A DNA stretch of 64,000 nucleotides from Tubulanus polymorphus (Eukaryota > Nemertea > Palaeonemertea > Tubulaniformes > Tubulanidae). A program made the translations under genes and the position numbers. The notes beneath the pieces are model-generated. The model was not told the DNA's origin. It saw only the letters and a list, made by a program, of their open reading frames with translations, and ran no database searches. Shown piece by piece: positions 6,441 to 60,700 of the stretch (position 1 is its first letter; each line of letters begins with the position of its first letter). The stretch covers positions 8,319,450 through 8,383,449 of the forward strand of contig NC_134026.1 in assembly GCF_964204645.1 (NCBI RefSeq), read 5' to 3'.

Positions 6441-7330
6441 TCACGCGCATCGACATTCTTGCACGACCATATCTGAATAAAGGCTCACGGATAACTGGCC
6501 GTGTTCGTCGTAGTGGAGGAGATTCAACGGACGTAGCTTCGTGGCCGTGCAGCACGGCGCCGGGGCGGCCGCCGGGTTCATCACGTGAATCGCCGATTTA
6601 ATGCCCGCGAACGTATGCGCCGGTTTGTACCGATGCGGACAAACGCCGTCGCAGTAGTAGGCCTTGTAGCCCTCGGGCGCAACTACCCAATTGTCCCAGC
6701 CGATTTCGCTGAACGATACCCATAACGGATACCGACAGCACCTCGACTCGCCGTCGCCCTGTCTGCAGTCATGTTTGATAGGACTCCGTTTCACTCGACC
6801 TAGTATCTCTTTCTCGTGAGTGTAAACACTGAGAGTCGGCAGTAACGCCTGCCGAGTCGTTTTACGCTTCGTATAATACTCGTTGCTTGTCGGAGTTCTC
6901 GTCGTCTTGCGACTCGTATAAAACTGCAACAACTGACTCATGTCTTGCGAATCGCACGAAATTTCTAATCCGTAGTTTTTGCGCGGATTTTCGATCCAGA
7001 ATTGCACCGCTTCTTTGATGTCGATAACCTCCCAGCCGGTTTCCAACAGGGACGTCACTTTTGAGGTAATCAGTCGCCGGATCGGTTGATTGAATTCCGA
7101 TTCGACCGGTGTCAACAATAGATACGCACTCAAAATCACCCGCTTACCGAAGTTAGTTTTATCCTTTAAGTTGTACGGAAACACGTGATTTTTGTATATC
7201 CTGAACTCGGCAGACGATACGTAAATCTCTCGGTTTGCATTGTCCGGCATGGAAATGTTTATTTGAAAGAAATGCCTTGACTGTTTCGACTCACGCCATA
7301 ACTCATCTTTCACCATATATGGCGGCTCAC
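6441..7330 (-). CDS. TGF-beta ligand coding exon 2 (propeptide and mature domain)
   Basis: Starts after a polypyrimidine tract and ttttag acceptor. It completes codon 110 and runs to a TGA. It holds most of the propeptide (motifs WEVIDIKEAVQFWIENP, NYGLEI), the RVKR cleavage site and the complete cystine-knot mature domain. The single-exon mature domain is typical of the family. The reading upstream of 7330 is intron, so an apparent ATG at 7397 is not the start. Confidence 0.92.
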
Positions 7331-10300
7331 CTAAAATAGAAAAAAAACAGAAAAACTTTTGAGAAACTTTTACGAAAGCCGCGCGGTCGCATTTCAAACA
7401 AGAATTTATAGCAATTTCAACCGTAGTCGCAACAGTCGGCGAAATTAGGAAAGATTATCCGTTCGTTATTGGGCGTCGATATTCCGTCATTCTACAGAAA
7501 TATGAAACCGAACGCGCGCCAACGTTATTCTACAATTCCACACCAAGAATTATGTGTTAATGAAGATGCAAAACCACTCCAAACACCTCCACACCCGAAC
7601 GCAAATTATATACCGCATAACAGGCAAAACGAGATATCGAGGAGTTTGACGGCTCAACAGGATTATCTCAAACTAGCGGAAAGCCCGTGGAAACCACGGG
7701 TGATTTTTAAAAGTAGAACTTCCGACTTATTAATTCATTGTACGTGTAGGAGCATTTTAAAGCGGCCTATTATGTGGTGGGTCACCCGTGCCCGTTGAAA
7801 CCATATTGGATCACGGGACCCACTTGACCTGTGCCCAATGATACTGGGTCCCTCTTCTTCCCGTGGAGGCCTGTAACAGAGCAAACAAATATGTAGTACC
7901 GATATGATCATTTCATAACGTATGAATTTTATGCGGTTTATTACAAATGTTCATTTTGATATTCCGCTGATCATCGCGCGTGAAATGTGTCGGTTAAGCC
8001 TATATTGTGCACACAGCAGGCAATAAATCCGAAACAAGAAACAGATTTGGATGTTTGTGTTTCGGTGTTTCGATTCGCCCGCCATCGCACAACGCGTACG
8101 TTTCGATGGACGTGTTTCGTGTTTTAGAGAAACGCACATATAAGTCACGAAACAAGCCAGGAAAGTTTCGTGTTGGGAGTTTATGTCTGCTGTGCGCGCT
8201 GGGCCTTATGATTCATCATCATTTTGAGTATGAAAATTAGCAACTATTATGATATTGAGCTAGATATTTGAGTTCTAGAATCAGCAATTACAAAAGGAAC
8301 ACTAAATTTACGAATGACAATATGCGTCAACTTCTGAAAAAGAATTGAAAGCATAAAACGAACGTTTTTATCCCTCAACCCACTTAACAGCTACTATACA
8401 GGACGTTGTTAGTTGGCTAGTGGCCCCCCTAGAAAAGAAAAACCATCGACCAAGAATCTCTGCCCCTTCAGGATTTGGACCCATGAACCTCTGGATTGGA
8501 GTCACGCTAAAACCGATGGCCCACGCGGCAAACGACTAAAATAATATACAAATGAACAAAATGATCTCCAACCTTGTGCGTAAGGGATCTTGATGTATGA
8601 AATAAGGAAGCCAACAAAGTTAACCCACATCGAGTCGATTGCCGATTCAAACAAGTTGGATGATTGTTTAAATGAACTGGAACCGAAAATTTCCAATTAT
8701 GTTCTTCGATTGAAACAAAAAATTCCTTAGATTCGACCGCCGATCGCACAACTATATCTGAACTTTGATTTCCGATTTCAAAATCAAACCCCCCGTTTCG
8801 TTGCCGGCAGGAATGGTGGGTTTCTAAGGGACACCAAATCGAAGCAAATCAAACGAATTCGACCAATGAAATAAAGTGTGAATCCCTATTTTAAGACCAA
8901 AACCGATGGCCGAAAGGCTGCTGCGTTCTTCCTACAAAAGGCCAAAGGTCGACGCTCACATGGTTATTCAAACTATTCATGTATCATTAGATCATTCAGT
9001 TTGTAAACGTGTTTCTAAATTTTCTAACGTCAGAAAAGTTTTCAACGAAAAAAAGAAACGATAGCACAAAGAAATACAGATGCGCATTCTCCCCGAGCGA
9101 TTCGATATATTCGGCTGCTAGAAAGACTTCGGTTTACGAAGCGATGCAAATGTCACCGTTCTCTAGCAATCGTTACATTTTTCCTTCTCCCTCTCGCGCC
9201 ATGAGTAAGAGGGCTATTAGGAATGTAATACGAAGTGCCTTCGTCCTGATCGATCCGAGAAATACCTCAAAATCCGCGCAGTGGGATGTTGAGCGGACTC
9301 TGTATTCAAACAGAGTATTTATTTTCCCAGGCACTGCACGCTAATGCTAGCGCAGGTACCGCGCGGCCACTGTATCAAAGACTGCCCAATTTCTGCGGAC
9401 GTGATCGAAATGGGAAATGCGTTACTTCCATAAGTGTCCATCAGAACACAACGTCAGACGCAAGCAAACCCGCTGCCGATGGTCTGCCGCGGCGGATAAT
9501 CGAAAATGAAATTAAGCCTTAGATCAGCGAGGAATTGCTTGCCAAATATTTACTTTTCTCTTCGATCGAGGCTTTCTCAAGGACCGCGGCCATATTCTAG
9601 ATCAATATTCCAACTGAACTTCAAAGGTGTGAAATTAATTCTAATTCGTGATAGAACCCGCACTTCGGTTACATGTCTTAGCAGAATTTGTCATATAGTA
9701 TAATATCACTATCTATTTATTAATTGACATCATTCGAAAATCAGATTGAACTCAAATGAAGACGCAGCAAAACAAAATCTCTTACAGCGCAGTTTTCTTC
9801 CATAATGCGCCATTTTTCGATTCAACGGTTATCAAAAGATAAGTAATATTTTTCCTTGTATGCAAATGCACTTACCTGGCAAAAAAGTATAAAACCGTAC
9901 AACCCTATTAATCAGAGTACATTTATGTTTGATCATAGACATTTTTCGCTCACCGGAAACCGGATGATGTCATATTTCCGAATTAGGAAATCACAATTCG
10001 TTGACGTCTCGCCCAAATTTGGGGTTCACTGATAATTCGCTTCGTTAGCAAGTGCTATCAGTTGAAAGCAGTCTAGAAAATTGTGTCTTATCGAAAAACG
10101 AGTAAAAACTTCCCTCATTTTATTATAATAGTCATGATACGCACGATGCACATCGTTTATTCAAGTGTTAGCGAACTGTAAGCCAAACCGCACAAAACGC
10201 AGGGAAACATTGAAAGACAGAAATACGTTCTCATGTCTTTGTGTTTCCCTGCACCGTGTGCATTTTTATGGCTAATACGCCGTTGTTTTTAAAACTTTTA

Positions 10301-36700: not shown

Positions 36701-39700
36701 GAAAACGTACCGATAATGAGATGATGATAATAAACAAGCAAAAAATAATGAATCTCTTTTCTCGATATTGAAACATTTTCAGTCGAGGAATTAACAAAGC
36801 GAGTTAGATCTTTCCATAAAAAACAACAACAAAAAAACGACAAAGGGAGAGTCCGCGAATAAAGAAAATCCAAATAAGTGAATGCAACTTGGTGATTGCG
36901 GTGATAGCTTGTTTCGTGTATGAAGCAAGTACAGATCTTGCAAGCGCGATCTCCGATCATGTTACGGGAGACCTAAACAAGGATGTGCGAATGCAAAGTT
37001 GCCGATCGACAGAAATGAAAGGCCATTCCCGGTTGTCCAGCTGGTGGCGCCGCCCTTGAGCTCATAGGCAGCCGGCCAATCAGAACCACGGAGACACGTT
37101 CTTTCAGTTCCGGAGCTCAGGCGTAAAATTAACATTTTACCGCCCACCATCTCCTACCAGCACCTAGAGCTCGGCATAAGGGCAGGGCATATCGCGTATC
37201 TTCGGTACTCGGTATGGGTGTTGGTATTCTTAGCCCACTTACTGGCAGTAAATAGCATATCCTCTGAACTAGGTCAAACAGCTGGGGTGTTTGACCGTGT
37301 AGTAATTGTCATAACTAGGTCAAAACAGCTGGGGCGTTCTGACCTGGTTTATCTAGTTTGAATGCATCTATATGATAAGTGATAATGATTCGCGCTAACG
37401 ATTTAAATTTTTGCTGTATTACTGACATTATCAAGGGTCGATCCAGGGTGTTATTAGACGTTCTCCCAATAATTGGGGCAATAGACCATGAAGAGGGCAC
37501 ACTCGTATCTACAACAAGGTGAATATCAAAGAAATCAATCAGGGTGGCCACTTAAATTTGACTTACTTTCCCCCCGGCTATTCCCCGAAATGCACGTTGT
37601 TCCTGAGCTCCTGCTATGGTCTTAATAAATAAATAGGGTCGGGCGGCTCTTCAACTCAATGATCTGCTTAAGAATCCAATCAATTAACACAGTCAAATAC
37701 ATAAGACATAGGTGAAAACTGTTTATACATGTGATATAGCAATCTCAAGATATTTTCCTGGCTTAAGCCTGATTTTTAGTCTTTTTTTTAAACCAAATTC
37801 CCTGACATTTTTAAAGAAAAGCAAATTATCTGAATATTCCCTGATTTCCAGGTAAGTGGCCAAGGTGGTACGAGGGTATGGGGATATTCTACCTGGTGAG
37901 TCATATCAAACGATGCATTAAGAAGGGTATATCGGTTTTTTTTTTCTGATTTATGGATCGAGTTGATAATCTATCTCGCGGAATCTATTGGTCAGTATTT
38001 TTTGAAGGGCCCAAGAAGATCGAGACTATATTGTTCGATAGGGCAAATAGATCAACTACTTTCTTTTGACCTTGCAGGGACATCACGAGCTCCGGCTGCA
38101 GAAGACTGGGTGCGCACAGTTAACATAACCACTCAGCATCTACGGGCTTGACGCCAAAATTGACAATAATTAGGCATTTAAAGTATATTCGTAGAGAGCC
38201 GTGTTTACCAGGTTTAAAATAAGTAACGAGACGAGTAGTACTGTATAGGTTAACTACTTATTTGACGCATGAGCTTTCGCTTCTAATGAATAGAAGCTTC
38301 ATCAGGTGATGCATCAGGCATTTAATAGTAGTACACGTACTGGTGTGGTTCAATTGGAAATGAACTAGAAATAAGTCAGCGGTGGAATCATTGAGAATTA
38401 CTATTATTTGTTTGCAGACATCATGGACTAGTGTCATTTTAACATACCGGGTAATTTTTCCAAATATTTTTTTTAGATAAAGCTTTTTAAAGAGTAGAAA
38501 CTACTAAGAAATCTAATTATCAATCAGGTTCGGTGGCCCAATCAGAATTATCAACATATGTTTGTAGACAGCATGGACTAAATGAGAGAAAATCTTTGAT
38601 TGACTTTTGAGGAGTGAGTACCTCATTCTTGTGCACAAATAATAGTTGCACTCGCTACTTTGAATGAGCTACAAAAACTAAATGAAAGTTCAGAAGAGAA
38701 ACTAAGCCTCTTTAGCAAGTTATTTCATACGAAAGGAAGCAAGCGTCATATACGCGTTCGCCAAAATGGACTTCGCGTGATCGTGGAAAAACATCGTACC
38801 TTCTCTTTGATCGGTTCCGGCGGCGACAATTGCGGTTCGATCGTGATGAATAACGTAATATAGGTGGCGTTCTGTTCGGTTTTGCTCATGTTCACTTCGA
38901 ACCCGGCACCCATACCCGTGTCGACGCGAGTATTCTTCGTGTCGTGCGAATAGCCGAGCAGAACGGGAGGCATATCCACTTTGAACGTACCCTCGATCTG
39001 AAAATTCATTAAGTCGATTACGCATCAGTCATACACCGGTAGTTCTGTCTGTATCTGTATATGTCCGATACATCGCTACATCCAGATTCGGCATATACGC
39101 GATGGGAGAGAGAGTGATAAATAAATGTTAGACATTGGTCTGTGTAGCGCAAAGTTTAATGCTATAAAATACTGTTCTAAGGCACTTACATAAAACATTC
39201 ATACATAATAATCTTAACATAAGCTTGAACAAAAAGATAGCTCATCTAAAATGGTTAAAATTTTCACAATATGGTTCCAAACATAACTGGTACAGAAATC
39301 TTTAAAAGATCTGACACCCGATTCTACCAGATTTTGTAAAAGATTTTGACTAGATGAACAAAGAGAATAATGTATGAAATCGAAAAAATTATTATCAACA
39401 AACGCGAAGCAAAGATTTTCTCACCGTAGAATTGAGATACAGCGTTGAAAACGGTACTTTCAAACTGCCGAGCCATTTCTTTTCGATTCGCCGATGAACG
39501 TTCGTTTGTCTCTGGATATCTTCCTGAAATTATGATGAAAAATCATGATGGATTTTCGAGAACAGGCCCACAATCGGATATACTGCAGCAGTGAGCCATT
39601 GAATTTCTAAATTCCGAATTTTCATCCGAGTCGAGGCATATGTTTCAAAATGATACAACTTGAAAAGAATGAGTAAATTACCTCGGACATGTCAGTGACA

Positions 39701-51700: not shown

Positions 51701-54700
51701 TTCGTTGCAGATGTTCGTCGTAGAGTTGAGTAAGGCGTACGGCGAGCACGTTCTCTCGGCCGAACAGATGATGGTGCGAAAACGATATCGAGTTGATATC
51801 GACATCCAACTGATATTTGGAAAGCATGTCGATCCTTCCGTCGATGTATCGGCTATCAAACTCCTTTAGTTGAGCCTAAATAAAAGTATACCGGTTTAGG
51901 CGAAATTAGGCGACAGCTTTCTTAATCTCATTTTCGGCGATGAAAGAACACGCTCGGCGAGATATCAACAAATTGAGGAAAATTAGAATAACTTTCAAAA
52001 ATATTACAAATTGAAATTCTAGCACTGTCTTTTTTTATAGATCCGGTTCCCGTTCCTAAGCTTTAACCGTTTCAGTGCTGCATCTAAACCGCAATGCGGC
52101 GTATAAATCGGTAATATCAACTCTGAATCAAGCTTAACCCTTTCAGTGCGTCTACACCGCAGTGCGGTGTACGAATCAGTGATGGATTTTGCTAGTACAC
52201 CACACTGCGGTGTATTGATGTAATTAGTTACTATCTCTATTGAAAGATGGTAGCACCTGTCAAGCATAGTGAAATTTTAGTAACTAACGATACACCACGC
52301 CGCGCTGTAGACGCACTATAGTGGTATTCCCGTTTTTTAACACACTAGGGTGAAATTTTTCATAATTTTCAAATTATCTAGAGCACTATAGGGTATCAAT
52401 TAGTCAGCACTGAAAGGGTTAACAGAGAGTTAAGATTGGAGTTCATTTCTGATTGCTCAAACCCTATCGTCGAATTGTAACTCAGAACTATGGAATGAGG
52501 TCATGTTTTAACTATAACCCACAGAGATGAGAACGCCGACCTATAAAATGCGCAGTTTTTTTTGTTGAGTTGCACACGCGAAACAGCTGATGGCATAGCA
52601 CTCGCACAAGCGATTTTGGGGGCTTGGGGGTCCTCCCCCAAGAAAATTTTAGAAATTAAAAGCATTTTCCAAGCACTTAGAGCGATCTTGAACCCATGAA
52701 CGACTATTATATTTTGGAAGGTGATGGCTAGTTCCAATGTGGTACATCCTCATTCGATGACATTCAGCATCTCATGCATTACGGGTCGAGCCCTGAATTA
52801 TTGCAGTTAAAACGCACCGATGAATGCTCACTAAAAATCATCACCCAGTAATGTATAATATCTGAAGGCATTCGCCACACACGTGCGACAACAGTAAGTA
52901 GGCCTATGTACATTACTTCTGTTGCCGCGCGCGCTCGTCTGCAACCGATCGATAAAATACATACACACTCATCGTAGTACAAACGTAGATACAAAATCAG
53001 GGTTGCAATGAATATGCATTCAAATGCGATACTTTTATGTGACGATAAGTAAAACAGGCACTGAACGCTTTTACGGTTCACTACCGATCGCACCAGATCA
53101 ATTGAATGAGGTCATCAACCCCCCCATACTTTTACATCATTTTCGGACTATTTGGAAAATTGATATTTTTCAATACCGAAATCCGCGGGAAACCGCGGAT
53201 CCGCGGGGAATTCTCATCCCTGAACCCAGGACCCAGTCACGTACTTAGTACTTGGTTAGATTTGACTCTGTAGTTTGTTAGCTTTGAGACAAATCTTAAT
53301 CTACGTACAACCCTGTAGATCTGTATCCAGTGGTTAATAAATTGGAGATAGCACTCGTGGTATGCAGGGGTGGATCCTCGGTCAGAAGGAAGGGGTGTCC
53401 ACTAAAGAAATTTAGGGCCTCTTTCCATCTTTCCAAGGTTCACCGCAATTTCGTTTCTCACATACTCAATATTTTAGAACTTCTAGAATGGTAATAAAGC
53501 CAATAACCACAACAAAATCTTGATATTTTTCTTAGAAGATATTCAGTCCGGAATTTTTTAAGATGGAATTTTCAAGGGACCGCAAAATTTGGGGGGGTTG
53601 TCCCGCAATGTTATGGTTCAAAAGGGGCTATAAAAATCACTCCATAAATGTCAGAATGTTCTACGAATGATAAATTCAGCCCACATACCGTAATGTAGGC
53701 AAGCCTCATTTCAGTGGATGTTGCTAGTTCGATACTAACCTTGCAGTAGATAGTTTCGATGAACGGATCAACTTCTTCGCTGATCGGAGGCCGGTTGGGT
53801 ATTTCCTTTAAAGGATTTGGCAGGATCATCACCTGACCATCTTCCCCGAACCACTTCTTGCCCTGAAAAATCGTGAACAAATCCATGATCCCGTGACATA
53901 TGGTTATTGAAACATTTGATTTATCAATGCTTGACAATCTCACAATTTCAATATTCAATGCCCCTGGCAAACAAACTGTATACATTAATCAACGAGCTTG
54001 AAACTCACTATAATCATAAAAGATTTGCAAAAACTTACCAAACCATCCGGTTCATGTAACAGACGATCTTCTAATTTGTTTTGATTGCGCAATGAGACAA
54101 TCGGGCGTTCACCCACGAACAATCCTTCTTCCTCCAGAAAACGTGGCTCGCAGTCCTCTGGTATCTTCTTCTCAGACGGAACTAAAATAGAAATAAAAGA
54201 GGTCGCTTTTAAATTCTATTTGATCAAAAAATTTCATATCCGACATTTCAAATGGAAAGTACGTATACTCTTGTTTCTACATGATATCAGATTGCCATAG
54301 ACCCTTCCAGAAAAGATGGCTGGCCCGATGTAACCCCCTATGACATCATTTATGTGGCAATCTTACAGTCTCTAACAGTCAATAAATCAAATCTCTAAGA
54401 CTAGTAATTCTGATGCAGATAACGGATAAAATCTTGATGATTGTGAACCAATTACCGGTACACAAAAATTACCAGATATATCCCCCATAAAAAAAATCCA
54501 CTTTGTTCACATTTTCGCTGACTTGTAGATATTGGGATATTGCATTTTATAATGAACAGCTTCATTTTCAAGTCAAATTTAATGAACAATAGTGAAACTG
54601 GTCTAAGTATGAGCCAGAATCAGTGAAAGGTATACCGAGCCGTATTTACCGGGGATCATTGAAGGCACGAAATAAACCAGATCTTCGTGTTTGCGTTTTT

Positions 54701-57700
54701 CCTCGTATGGTATATATTCCGCCTTTCGTACCGCTACGTACATATCCCAGCCTTCGTCTTCCAGGTCGTCAGCCAAAAGAGGTTCCTCTAAATACATAAA
54801 TATATCCATGAAAATTCAAGCAGGATTTTGAAAGGGCTTTGATACTTTTTTTTGCATTTCAAACAATAATCGCAGGACTGAATACTGACCATCTTCTGCT
54901 TTAGGTTTTTTGTCTTTTTTCGTTTTCTTCTTCTCAGCAGCTTCTTCGCTTTCTGGTTCGCCTTCTGCCTCCTAAATTCAAAAACATACCACAAGTCCAA
55001 ACACGACTTCTTTACATTTTCTACATTTTTCACACTCGAATATCAAGAAGGCAAACTTCGACTACCTTATCTTCTTCTTTCCCTTCCTCTCCTTCCTCGG
55101 TCGGTTGCTCTTCCTTGCTCGTCCCCACTTTAACTTTTTCGTCTTCTTCTTTTTCTCTCTCTTCCGCTGCTCTTTTCTCTTCCTCTTCCATTTCGGGGTC
55201 CCAGTTTCGAGTGAAGAAATCCAACGATTCCTCCGCCGAAATGACACCAGACTGCAATATCAAAATCAATTCACCGAATCGTTTCATCCATTTTTTCGAA
55301 ACATTTAGCTCAGGAATATGGATCAATCCAGTAAGTTTTTCTTAAAGAACTAGCTTAATACCTGTTCCTTTGCCTTGTCCACAGTAATCTGAAAGATAAT
55401 CAAATCAAAGAAGAGATTACAGCTAAATTGCATAGATTTCTATAATATAGCCTATTTCTAGCATCTTATTTATCATCAATATTTACAAACAAAAAGAGAG
55501 AAATTATGTGACTTTTAGAATTTTTGCTGCAATGTTATTTATTGGCGAGAGAATTGGTATAAATGAATTGCTGCGATGGATATACAAACTTAATAGTATC
55601 TTAAGATGACATTCTACAAAAGCATGCCAGAAGCAAATTACCAAAGAAGCATTAGTTAAGTAATGAAGAGATTTCTTCCAGTTAATCTATGGTTATTCCA
55701 GGAATCACAATGGGCTGCGATACCTGAACTTTCAAATCACCTTATAGTAAAGTCCAGGTGAAATTGTACACAAAATGTTAACATTTTCTTCCAAAAATTG
55801 CTAATATTTCATGGGTATTATGATATATCTTTTTCAGACAATGCCTTATCAATCATCGAGATATATTAGAAGAATTTGCAAGCGCTATATCGCAAGTGCA
55901 AGTGCAATGTTTAATGATGAATCACCAATTTCGGGTTTCAAAGAACAACACCAAACTTTGTTTCCATTAGCCGCGATCACACTGAGACAATAAGACTTGG
56001 CACGGATCAGGCCTGAGTCAAATTTGGCCAGTGCCTAATAAGAGAGCGCGTTCATCCATAAACCACTGACTCGATACTAAACAATGTTTAAACAAAGCGA
56101 AGTGAGTCACGTTCACAACCACTAGCAATTCACACGCGATAATTTGACCCGTGCTAAGATTTGGCTTGGGCCTGGTCCGACGTTGTCGACATTTAGCACC
56201 CGTGTGAACAGTTGTTCCAGTCCTAATTTGGAACGGGTCAAAAATGCCCATGTAATCGCGGCTATTGTGAATCCAGCACCGAAGAATTAAAAACTGATTA
56301 ATAATTCGTGCATTTTTTTACTAATATCACCTCATCGGTCGCCTTCTTCATCGATTCTTTCCATTTCTTAGAAAGCACAGCGGCGCGTTCGTCCTGTAGG
56401 GGGAAAATCATTCAAGTGCAGGAAAAATCATGCTATATTCGAGGAAGGAATCATTGATAAATCATTGGTACGACAACGCTTCTATAAAATAGTCTGAACT
56501 CTGTTTCCACCGATGTCAACAAGCCAGCAGTTGCTCTAAAGGTTATGCAGTTTTGATCGTCACTAGTCACATGTCAAGCTTTTAACACATTCGCTACCGA
56601 TCGCAAATCTTTGGATTTGCCAAAGATTTGCTTGCATTTCCAATGAAATTCAGTGTGCGCCTTACTTTAGGCAGCCCCATAAACCATATTTCATCTCTCT
56701 TATACTGGCAAATGATTTTTAGTTTTTTTCTCGCGACTTATAGATCTCTCAGGAAGCTAGAATTAACGGCATATCTATTACAAGATTGGACAATTTTGGT
56801 GTACCGCCCATGACGGGTCATTTCGTAACTGGCAGCGAATATGTTAAAAGCTAATGCAACCAGAAAAAGTCCTTTGAGCGTTTGGTTTCAAAGAAGGTCA
56901 TTGAGCTGGTTGCAAAGTGGCAACCTCGATTCCAATCATAATTGCGCGAGCGACTACTTTATAGGTGTTGTTTCATTCCACACATGAAATCAAAATATAT
57001 ATAAAATCATTTCAAATCATCATGATGCCATGCAATTTTTACCCACACCGGGGGATAAAGGGGGTAGGTCATAACGTATCATGCGGCGTTGGCGTATTAA
57101 CTTAATAACTTCACCTTTGGCAGATAATATTGACCAGTACGCTTCCAGCGAATTTGTCGCAACTTATGAAGTTGCTTTTTGGTCTTTTTAAGTTTTCGAT
57201 CGGCTTCGTCTTCCAACTAGCGAAAATTGACAACCAAGTTATGTTTACGGCCTCACGCGGCGAGAATATTTCCATGAGTTTCGAAAATGAATATCAAAGA
57301 AAGTAAATACAGTAGACTCCGCTCAACTCTTAAGATATTCGTTGAAATATTTTCCTAAGCTATACATGGCTAAGAAGTACAGTCGAACTTGGCTAAGTCA
57401 TCATAGCTGGGATAATATGTTGACAACTTATCTGAATTATTCAGATTTAGCAAATTGAATTGGAAAAAAAATTGGGACTCAAAATGTTGACGACTAAACA
57501 GGGTCCCTACTATGGTCATTCAGGGATATAAGGGGTTTTCAGCATAAGTTTTTTAAGGAGAAAATTTCAAATTTCAAATTTAAAGAAAGCGTCCGCATTG
57601 CTTTCATATCCCAATTACTGTTGACTCCTCCTGAATCGGTACTGTTTATCTCTGTAAACTGGTAAATCGGTCATTTTGTAAGCAAAACAGTGGCTAATTT

Positions 57701-60700
57701 GGTAACCGCCTGATCGGGTAAAAATGAATCCTGGTCCCAACTGTATTGATTTGGGCGTAGTTTACCGTACTACAAATTACGAAACATTTCTAATTGCCTC
57801 TTTCTCAAAATTGAAGGAGTTTCGGACGTTTTGCTCAAATTAAAGGAGTTTCAAGCACCTTTACAAGCATTTTCGGTTTAGAAGGAGATTTCATGAAATT
57901 AAGGAGTTGTAGGGACCCGGTTAAAGTAATGTGACCACTTATCCGATGATGAATTAATCAAGGTTAACTGTATATACCATCCTAGCCAGATATTGCTCAA
58001 GTTGGACTAATTTCCACGGTCTCAAAATAATCCACCAATAAAGCAGAGTCTACTGTGTATAAGTGTATGTATAAATACCAGTGTAGCATCGTCGAATCTT
58101 GTGGTTAACTGTTTTTCTCGTAAACCGCGTAGCTTTCGTTCTGGTTTCACTTCGTCTCTGGCCTCCGATTCAGCCTTTTCCTAAACAAAAATACAAACAT
58201 GAACGAATCAAATAGACAACCAAGACACAACACGTACATCTATTCTATTTGAAATAGCCTCGAAATTGGGTTCAAGACGAGAAGAAGAACAAGTTAAGTT
58301 TCGATGAACATGTACGTACCCTCGTAGATTGGACTTTACTACGTAGTCGGTCTCTTATACTTGAAGCCAATGATTTGCTGTCTCGTCTTCGAGTCTCGGC
58401 TGTAAACAAAATAGCTAATGAATAGAAATGAATCAAAATAAAGATGTCATATCGGTTAAATCCAGATTTTGATCTGATCTGGAATTTTTCACAGGCCACT
58501 TGTATATAGAATAAACAGTAGAACCTTGTTATAGCGAACTCGGATACAAATTCATCAGATATAACAAATATAGAATTTCGTCCCGAATAAGAAAATTTGA
58601 CTAATTTCATACTGGATATAAAGAATTATCGGTTATTTTCTGGTCCCGTGAAGTTCGCTTTAATGAGGTTACACAGTATTCTAATCTAGATTTCTCATAA
58701 ACCAGATAGTTCTGTATATTTATGTAGAGACAGATGAAAAGTGAACGCAATAGCCCAAGTAACGAGACGAGTAGTACTGTATAGGTTAACTATTTATTTG
58801 ACGCACAAGCTTTCGCTTCTAATAGAAGCTTCATCAGGTGAATGAATCAGTCTCATTCACCTGATGAAGCTTCTATTCATTAGAAGCGAAAGCTTGTGCG
58901 TCAAATAAATAGTCAACCTATACAGTACTACTCGTCTCGTTACTCGGGCTATTGCGTTCACTTTTCATCTGTCTCTACATAAATAGTACTACTCGTCTCG
59001 TTACTTATTTTAAACCTGGTTAACATGGCTACTCTACGAATATTCTCATTACGCAATAGCCCAAGTGGGCTGAAAATCAATGTTTGTACTTACAGACAGC
59101 TTCTTTTTCGGGTGCGGTTGCTTGTTCCGCTTGTACCTTCTCCTCATCGACAGGAGCGGCAGGTGTAGGTTCTGCCGCATCGTCAGGCATGGCAACACCT
59201 CCATCATCCGCATCGACAGAATCTGCGCCCTCTTCTTCGCCTTCTGGTGGTTGTGTCTGCAAAAAGGTTCAAAATGAATTAATTTTACATTTAAGTAAGG
59301 ATACCAGTTCCAAGAAATAGGTTAAGATCAACTGGGTTAGATAGTTGAAAAAGAAGAATTTGATCCAAAGCCTTACAACACACCACAGCGAACTGTTCAA
59401 AGGAGGATTGATTTCAGTGACACATCTGATTTAGAATACTTGTAGAATCTAAGTTAGCACAACTTCCAGTGATAAATCTTAACAACTTTGCTGTAATACC
59501 AATACCAATACTTTTAAGAGAATCAATTTTCTAAATTTTTTTTTTCAATACCAATTCCAATACTTTAAAAGAAATCAATTTACACTAAGGAGTCTAGGTC
59601 ATTGATCGTATAAGCAACTTTTAGAGTCTATGCCTACTTCCAACTAAAACTGTTTGATTAAATGAAGTAACTAATAACTGAAATAACCCCAGGGTTAAAT
59701 CAAAACTTATTTTGCAGGTCAAGGTACGATACTAGGCTAAATTGGTCACGTTTAGAAATTTTGTTAAATGTCAAAAAAATTTTATTGTAGCATTCATATA
59801 CAAATATGTGCTACTTACCCGCCGAAGAGATGCCTCTAACTTCTGTTTACTTTGTTTTTTCGCGTTGCGGAGTTCAGCTTGAACATCTCCCTGTTTGGAT
59901 CTCAACGATTTAGCCAGCGCTCTCTGTCGCTCCTTGTGTTTCACTTTTAGATCCTCGGCCAAATTAGTGGCATCGATAATCTCATCGGCCATCTGAAAAT
60001 AATTCATCTCGATTTGAAATTTGTTGTCGATGATTCCAACTATCATTTTGGACCGGGGGATAGACCACGTTCCATAGTTGTCGCGGAAGAGTTGATTCTT
60101 TAAGAGCCAACATTATTTCACTTCTAATGTTTTAACCCCAACAAATCCTAGCGCTAGGAACAGTCATTCCTGGGCTCTAATTCGAACAACTAAGGAATAA
60201 GTCCCGTGATTTTACATGCTCAGATCGAAAGCTGAACACTTTTCACATTTTTCTAAGCATGGATATGACCCTGCCAGATTGAACTGTGGGATAAGAGTAC
60301 AGAGCTATAGTGATCAATTGCCTTCCACGTATTTTTGATAAATAAACATACCTCATCCGCTGATAGATCACTACCAGTCAGTTCGTTATAACTATCAACC
60401 ATAGACGCTCCCTAAAAAGGCAAAGAACGAAAATAAATTCAAACGTTTTTTTTTTTTTGATAGGCCTATAGCTCAAAATATTTATCAAGAAAATCTACTT
60501 GATTAATTGCTCTACTCCATTTATCAGGCTACGGGATACGGGTCGTGGCATTGCACATGAAGAATAGAGTCACAAAAAATGGAAATCAAGCTATAATTCT
60601 AGAAAAAAAACCCAATTCTTCACTTAGGAACGACCTAAATGGGCTAAAACTGGACTAAAACTAGGTCATGGCAGTACCTACAACCTACGGAAAGCGCCCC

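Follow-up and report, generated by a model that had tools for sequence, protein, structure and literature searches.

A tail, short target duplications, GIY-YIG and pseudo-LTRs that may lie in either orientation have been described for Penelope-like elements, or PLEs (PMC11167929 and PMC3846280, in the passages drawn on here). The closest described system is that of the Penelope elements of Adineta vaga, for which the cited part of PMC3846280 reports inverted pseudo-LTRs with an optional, one-sided tail of 31 bp, target-site duplications of 8 to 10 bp and palindromes at the inverted junction; for head-to-head PLE repeats, self-priming on an antisense template was proposed there. The in vitro work on Poseidon of Anolis indicates, in the excerpts of PMC11167929 used here, that the PLE enzyme cuts and extends both target strands, that two start sites of reverse transcription delimit the tail and so explain it, and that the cut by the hammerhead, which lies at the start of the open reading frame (ORF), is unnecessary for insertion in vitro. 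Sections of PMC7761336 and PMC6155905 report minimal type I hammerheads from PLE sequences, in which helix III is very short or missing; they are located in pseudo-LTRs and suspected of acting as dimers. Metazoan non-LTR retrozymes, as presented in part of PMC7229834, are short, non-autonomous, equipped with type I hammerheads, and may use PLE machinery. How PLE insertion is completed, and what role the hammerhead plays, are called open in those parts of the PMC literature.

In this report, we analyze a window of 64,000 nucleotides from the nemertean Tubulanus polymorphus (contig NC_134026.1, called C2 below, positions 8,319,450 to 8,383,449), which contains a large palindrome at 58718-58984 with a hammerhead-like motif on each strand. 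Our main reading, to which we assign a probability of roughly 0.8, is that the palindrome is a short Penelope-like insertion composed of two pseudo-LTR fragments placed head to head. The object is of a known kind; its analysis yields a corrected assignment of the ribozyme, and a set of footprints that bear on an unsettled integration mechanism. Dozens of short insertions in this genome are readable in their arms, junctions and tails; these footprints favor priming from both ends, and speak against the ribozyme having cut the template at its own site.

Each of the described systems differs from what is seen here. Compared with the elements of A. vaga, as covered by the cited part of PMC3846280, the insert is often just two pieces of pseudo-LTR of ~95 nt, and its copies, which number in the dozens, vary in their junctions. 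Inverted pseudo-LTR pairs are undiscussed in the excerpts on Poseidon (PMC11167929), whereas the genomic copies here suggest a joined product of both extensions. Retrozymes are tandem repeats, according to the portion of PMC7229834 cited, whereas the palindromes are inverted pairs. Finally, in the motifs of the two repeat families considered below (A and B) and of a single locus, L077, an additional purine separates CUGAUGA from helix II, a feature that is not mentioned in the cited sections of PMC7761336 and PMC6155905.

Structure of the palindrome

Comparison of the window with itself confirms the 267-bp palindrome announced by the original prediction, which had been made from the letters of the window alone. 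The arms, at 58717-58823 and 58879-58985, are inverted copies with 98% complementarity, and 58718-58984 folds as one hairpin on either strand, at -227.7 kcal/mol on the minus strand (z = -36.9) and -219.4 kcal/mol on the plus strand (z = -33.6), each against 200 shuffles. While the palindrome is real over 267 bp, only its inner 188 bp, about 58757-58944, are assigned to a repeat family, because matches in the genome mostly cover bases 40 to 227 of the query. Beyond it, each arm ends in ~40 bp of local flank, copied in inverted form, and it is because the inverted left flank extends the arms that 267 bp had been predicted.

The family part starts with a pseudo-LTR arm (58757-58845) beside the tail-less side, whose PLE sense is on the minus strand, and ends with a second arm (58852-58944), whose PLE sense is on the plus strand; according to the arm alignment, a filler of 6 nt (58846-58851) joins them. 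On the left, outside the family, the outer arm at 58718-58756 (plus strand) is made of 27 nt of flanking DNA and the left target duplication of 12 nt. On the right, 58945-58984 (minus strand) is an inverted copy of this flank and duplication, absent from the other aligned copies. Between it and the tail comes a repeat of the arm's outer end (58985-59007, plus strand), and the PLE-type tail extension itself, recognized by comparison with family copies, is 42 nt long (59008-59049, plus strand). The target-site duplication ACGCAATAGCCC is found as a direct repeat on the plus strand at 58745-58756 and 59051-59062; its length is given as 12 to 16 bp, since the 16-nt identity includes AAGT, which is shared with the arm start. 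The extra inverted flank looks as if the copying strand had switched templates across the palindrome, either during insertion or afterwards. It cannot come from RNA and requires fold-back copying, and shows that fold-back copying of some kind occurred at this palindrome.

A dispersed family of short insertions

When the 267-bp sequence was used as a query against the 267.8-Mb genome, at least 80 matches were obtained, 40 of 705 candidates being scored, and mostly on both strands at each place. The inner 188 bp are one copy of a dispersed repeat family, called family A. In most of the first 38 loci, a tail of ~35-42 bp, ATATTCGTAGAGTAGCCGTGTTAACCAGGTTTAAAA, lies on one side of the palindrome and the opposite side meets the flank directly. 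The pattern of the tail-arm junction, with up to 3 mismatches, is present at 89 places genome-wide (0 in the reversed control), and the end of the tail alone at 137 places (0 in the control).

Copy counts were established as follows. Alignment of 98 loci and the window gave 81 rows with a tail match. A row was considered two-armed if both arm ends fell at 30-210 and the tail-less arm began no more than 6 nt from the arm start, a test that 51 of the 81 rows passed. Seven of these 51 were removed as copies of others (L112, which is the same place as L065, and L022, L028, L033, L043, L044 and L045, which have the flanks of L020), leaving 44 copies. Because of these selection limits, starts are near zero in 44/44 copies and no arm ends below 30; L012, L038, L047, L048 and L051, among others, are two-armed yet outside the limits and are uncounted. 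Arm ends were taken from local alignments, with an error of a few nucleotides, and an end at 205 means 205 or more. As the loci were collected for their similarity to the palindrome or for matches to the tail and core patterns, they do not give the share of palindromes among all insertions.

Several features of PLEs are present in family A. One is the one-ended tail of 30-40 bp: the opposite side is tail-less in 43/44 copies, a count that concerns this side only as the copies were chosen for a tail on one side, and a tail stands on both sides in the remaining copy (L092). Short target-site duplications are another. The flanks share at least 8 exact letters in 18 of 50 rows, whereas 1000 shuffles gave 0.68 such rows on average and never more than 4; the 50 rows include 7 duplicate rows, without which the figure is 16/43. 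As to pseudo-LTR pairs, family A has 44 independent inverted pairs, and family B a direct pair of hammerhead motifs.

A second copy of family A, with the tail and a single arm, is found in the window at 38172-38325. It is flanked by a 10-bp repeat, AGGCATTTAA, at 38172-38181 and 38316-38325, and looks like a one-sided insertion. Elsewhere, at C12:6.0-6.44 Mb, L020, L022, L028, L033 and L043-L045 have the same flanks, some copies being ~18 kb apart, and are probably a segmental duplication of a single insertion. The long and short arms have changed places in L033, which suggests a flip of the palindrome.

The parent element

Some members of family A run on from the arm into a common internal sequence. 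Read towards the arm, that of L066 encodes a reverse transcriptase (RT) with KPADKGGATVI, LPKIHK, GTAMG and FIDD, followed by IGETGQTL and then by the pseudo-LTR and tail; frame breaks and stops interrupt its coding region. We take these motifs to be PLE-type. In a profile search, a 54-aa piece of L068 scored 20.8 bits against GIY-YIG (E = 4.9e-4), under the cut-off of 22.6, and this GIY-YIG-like motif is also present in L066 and L070. The RT ORF of family A (L066) had no significant Pfam match, nor did a PDB sequence search with this RT give any match. The RT of L066 matches that of L114, a member of the second PLE-like family of this genome (family B), at E = 6e-21 in a two-sequence comparison; the L114 RT itself matches RVT_1 in Pfam (2.2e-10), and the PDB search with the family B RT returned seven weak matches, the best at 3.2e-4. 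We take the RT encoded by the parent of family A to be Penelope-like, an assignment that rests on these motifs and on homology to family B.

The family B member L114 has the hammerhead motif twice, in direct orientation and 2192 bp apart, around two ORF pieces. At C2:13.543-13.548 Mb, family B hammerhead motifs also lie 2-3 kb apart in direct orientation, and the family occurs in head-to-head pairs as well, for example at C2:30247144/30247325.

Assignment of the hammerhead

The original prediction had seen one hammerhead-like motif per strand, made of CTGATGA, a helix of 6-7 bp, GAAA, GC..GC and GTC. These parts are found on both strands, and the motif is hammerhead-derived; it fits the minimal type I form of PLEs. 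The way in which the parts had been assembled does not hold. A helix III of 2 bp with a cut at GTC leaves no helix I, as CAC stands before CUGAUGA and AAAUAAAU after GUC, and this drawing would also need a G beside U16.1; it was rejected for its lack of helix I. A better reading of the window copy is CAC-CUGAUGA-A-[helix II]-GAA-AGCU-U^GUG, with AGCU as a loopless, self-complementary helix III, which would suit a ribozyme working as a dimer.

This reading places a minimal type I hammerhead on the plus strand at 58858-58898 (pattern match at C2:8378307-8378347). It comprises CAC (58858-58860), CTGATGA (58861-58867), the extra A (58868), helix II (58869-58875 with 58881-58887), GAA (58888-58890), AGCT (58891-58894), U17 (58895) and GTG (58896-58898), with a predicted cut between 58895 and 58896. 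The opposed hammerhead, whose loop II is 4 nt shorter, is on the minus strand at 58804-58840 (C2:8378253-8378289), and its predicted cut is at 58807/58806.

The form of family A is CAC-CUGAUGA-A-[GCUUCUA...UAGAAGC]-GAA-AGCU-C^GUG, in which every part is placed but one extra purine. That of family B is CAC-CUGAUGA-G-[GGGAU..AUCCC]-GAA-AACGUU-C^GUG in L076, another copy, L074, having lost CAC. In L077, which is found at a single place and for which no coding part was found in 2.1 kb of sequence, the form is ACAC-CUGAUGA-G-[GAUCUC..GAGAUC]-GAA-ACGU-U^GUGU. Core, pairing and layout are therefore common to family A, family B and L077 despite different helix II sequences. The core (C3-A9 and G12-A14) is present in both arms of the window copy; among the 64 of 88 family arms that could be scored, CTGATGA is kept in 49 and GAA in 60. 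Helix I, formed by CAC and GUG, pairs in 56/64 arms over 3 bp only (ACAC with GUGU in L077); no covariation was seen in family A. For helix II, 87% of pair cells are paired in 36 family A rows among the matches listed, where one pair is T-A in 16 rows, A-T in 5 and a T-T mismatch in 13.

Helix II does not directly follow A9 in families A and B or in L077, being separated from it by the extra purine, which departs from the textbook hammerhead. Moving this purine into the helix lowers the paired cells from 87% to 25% in the 36 rows; in family B, judging from the letters, it could pair. Position 17 is U in the window copy and C in 28/36 family A rows among the matches listed. All five hammerhead features are combined in 36/64 scorable arms, and in both arms of 9/44 copies; both arms of the window copy keep the core, helix I, helix II and AGCU.

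Genome-wide, the pattern CTGATGAR-N6..24-YGAAA-N0..14-GTC was matched 665 times (63 in the reversed control) and CACCTGATGAR-N10..28-GAAA-N1..8-HGTG 302 times (1 in the reversed control), these counts being of repeat-family matches and not of independent events. Nearly all matches to the second pattern, among those listed, belong to two families; it fixes helix I, and says nothing on helix I covariation. An Rfam hammerhead match, which had been proposed as a check and whose absence had been named among the refuting outcomes, was absent from the window and from the palindrome up to E = 10. This absence is not decisive, because seven related loci, of which four carry another helix II sequence, likewise lack an Rfam hammerhead match. 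A search with RF00163 was empty in this genome and likewise in 14 control genomes. Neither family A nor family B is recognized by Rfam; its hammerhead models can overlook this form, and a negative Rfam result is no proof of absence. The microRNA and snoRNA names returned by Rfam at the window, the palindrome and the seven loci were below gathering scores, and were taken to reflect hairpin shape only.

Activity of the hammerhead

It had been suggested that a transcript of either strand could present a ribozyme core. The core letters are indeed on both strands; that a transcript would present them is doubtful, as the 3' arm, which holds the ribozyme, follows a 5' arm that already contains the complement of that ribozyme. 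Because each transcript makes the antisense arm before the ribozyme arm, the ribozyme would meet its full complement. For a single arm of 61 nt, the lowest-energy fold is at -12.7 kcal/mol and the hammerhead at -10.5 kcal/mol, the other fold being favored by ~2 kcal/mol. Hammerhead activity at the window palindrome is, on such folding estimates, unlikely.

The arm ends of the 44 independent copies bear on cutting of the copied RNA. None of the 88 lies at the cut (positions 50-53) and 82 lie past it; 46 are at 93-97 and 15 at 82-87. Because no arm ends at the cut and 82/88 extend past it, the RNAs copied into these chosen copies would have been uncut at their own hammerhead site.

Formation of the palindrome

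In our preferred explanation, both 3' ends of the cut target would prime reverse transcription of PLE RNA, one beginning at the tail and the other some 40 nt inward of it. Joining of both cDNAs in the middle would follow, so that a palindrome is made anew with each insertion. At the window copy, the template would have been switched once more, across the palindrome, and ~40 bp of the left flank thereby copied in inverted form. The hammerhead would come from the parent element and, in this copy, be silenced by its own complement.

An inherited palindrome would keep one junction. The 44 copies have 39 distinct junctions, with fillers, no filler or an overlap of 1-2 nt, and this variety speaks for formation anew. 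One junction type (arm ends at 85 and 96, 1-nt overlap) recurs in 6/44 independent copies, in both orders, and another in 2/44; the recurrent 85/96 junction could mean that some palindromes are inherited, or that the enzyme pauses at the start of CUGAUGA. At two subfamily sites, the arms of one copy differ as A against T in 5/38 and 5/37 copies, where ~0.55 would be expected for each from other A/T sites. The resulting argument for two templates is modest, since the two diagnostic sites are never both mixed in one copy. Whether PLEs in general integrate by reverse transcription from both 3' target ends, at different start sites and sometimes from different RNAs, with end-joining of the cDNAs and with an RNA uncut by its own hammerhead, is a proposition that we consider evenly balanced; on this view each insertion would leave a palindromic scar with a one-sided tail, and the dispersed copies of this genome would record such events. 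No two-ended PLE model was found in the titles and abstract openings of the literature searched, which covered few subscription journals.

Self-priming by fold-back, in which a strand snaps back and is copied into the second arm, is favored by the 18/44 copies whose arms are equal within 2 nt, and by the inverted copy that the window palindrome has of its own flank, which RNA cannot supply. However, if the tailed arm were copied back, a tail would be expected on the opposite side too, from which it is absent in 43/44 copies; moreover, the arms are more than 2 nt apart in 26/44, in both directions, and the arm differences at subfamily sites are above expectation in some copies. We regard fold-back self-priming as unlikely, and simple fold-back as the sole origin is disfavored. 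That the family is a DNA transposon or a MITE bounded by long terminal inverted repeats is barely credible: long inverted repeats, target duplications and many short copies would suit it, but the ends are asymmetric, with a one-sided tail, the shared flank letters vary in length, and a PLE-type RT is encoded inside a longer member.

Head-to-head insertion of two pseudo-LTR fragments must also be set against readings that question the hammerhead or give it a function. It is very unlikely that the hammerhead resemblance is due to chance, or that the palindrome is an assembly artefact. Such a view draws on the lack of any Rfam hammerhead up to E = 10 and on the empty RF00163 search, yet the latter was empty in the 14 control genomes too; a chance likeness fits poorly with 302 matches against 1 in the reversed control, or with the conservation of core, pairing and layout in family B and L077 around a different helix II, and an assembly artefact would not yield copies by the dozen that differ from one another in junction and flank. 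The original prediction also implied that the opposed hammerheads are an active pair by which the host pre-mRNA is processed. Neither strand of the window copy lacks any letter of the catalytic core, but the proposal is highly improbable in view of the hairpins of -227.7 and -219.4 kcal/mol, of a helix I of 3 bp and a loopless helix III, with which a monomer should be weak, of the U at position 17, where 28/36 family rows among the matches listed have C, and of the family arm ends, 0/88 at the cut and 82/88 past it.

Genomic context

A minus-strand gene lies near the palindrome, and its exons between 53.6 and 55.3 kb (53611-55341) match PF17661 (DUF5523) in a profile search; we take this to be a domain of CC2D2A-type proteins. 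Adjoining the palindrome, at 58516-58677, is an element of ~160 bp with the inverted ends CAGTAGAACCTTGTTATAGCGAAC ... GTTCGCTTTAATGAGGTTACACAG, which presumably resembles pogo-type MITEs. Elsewhere in the window, a TGF-beta ligand exon (PF00019, 1.2e-28) is found on the minus strand at 6444-7454.
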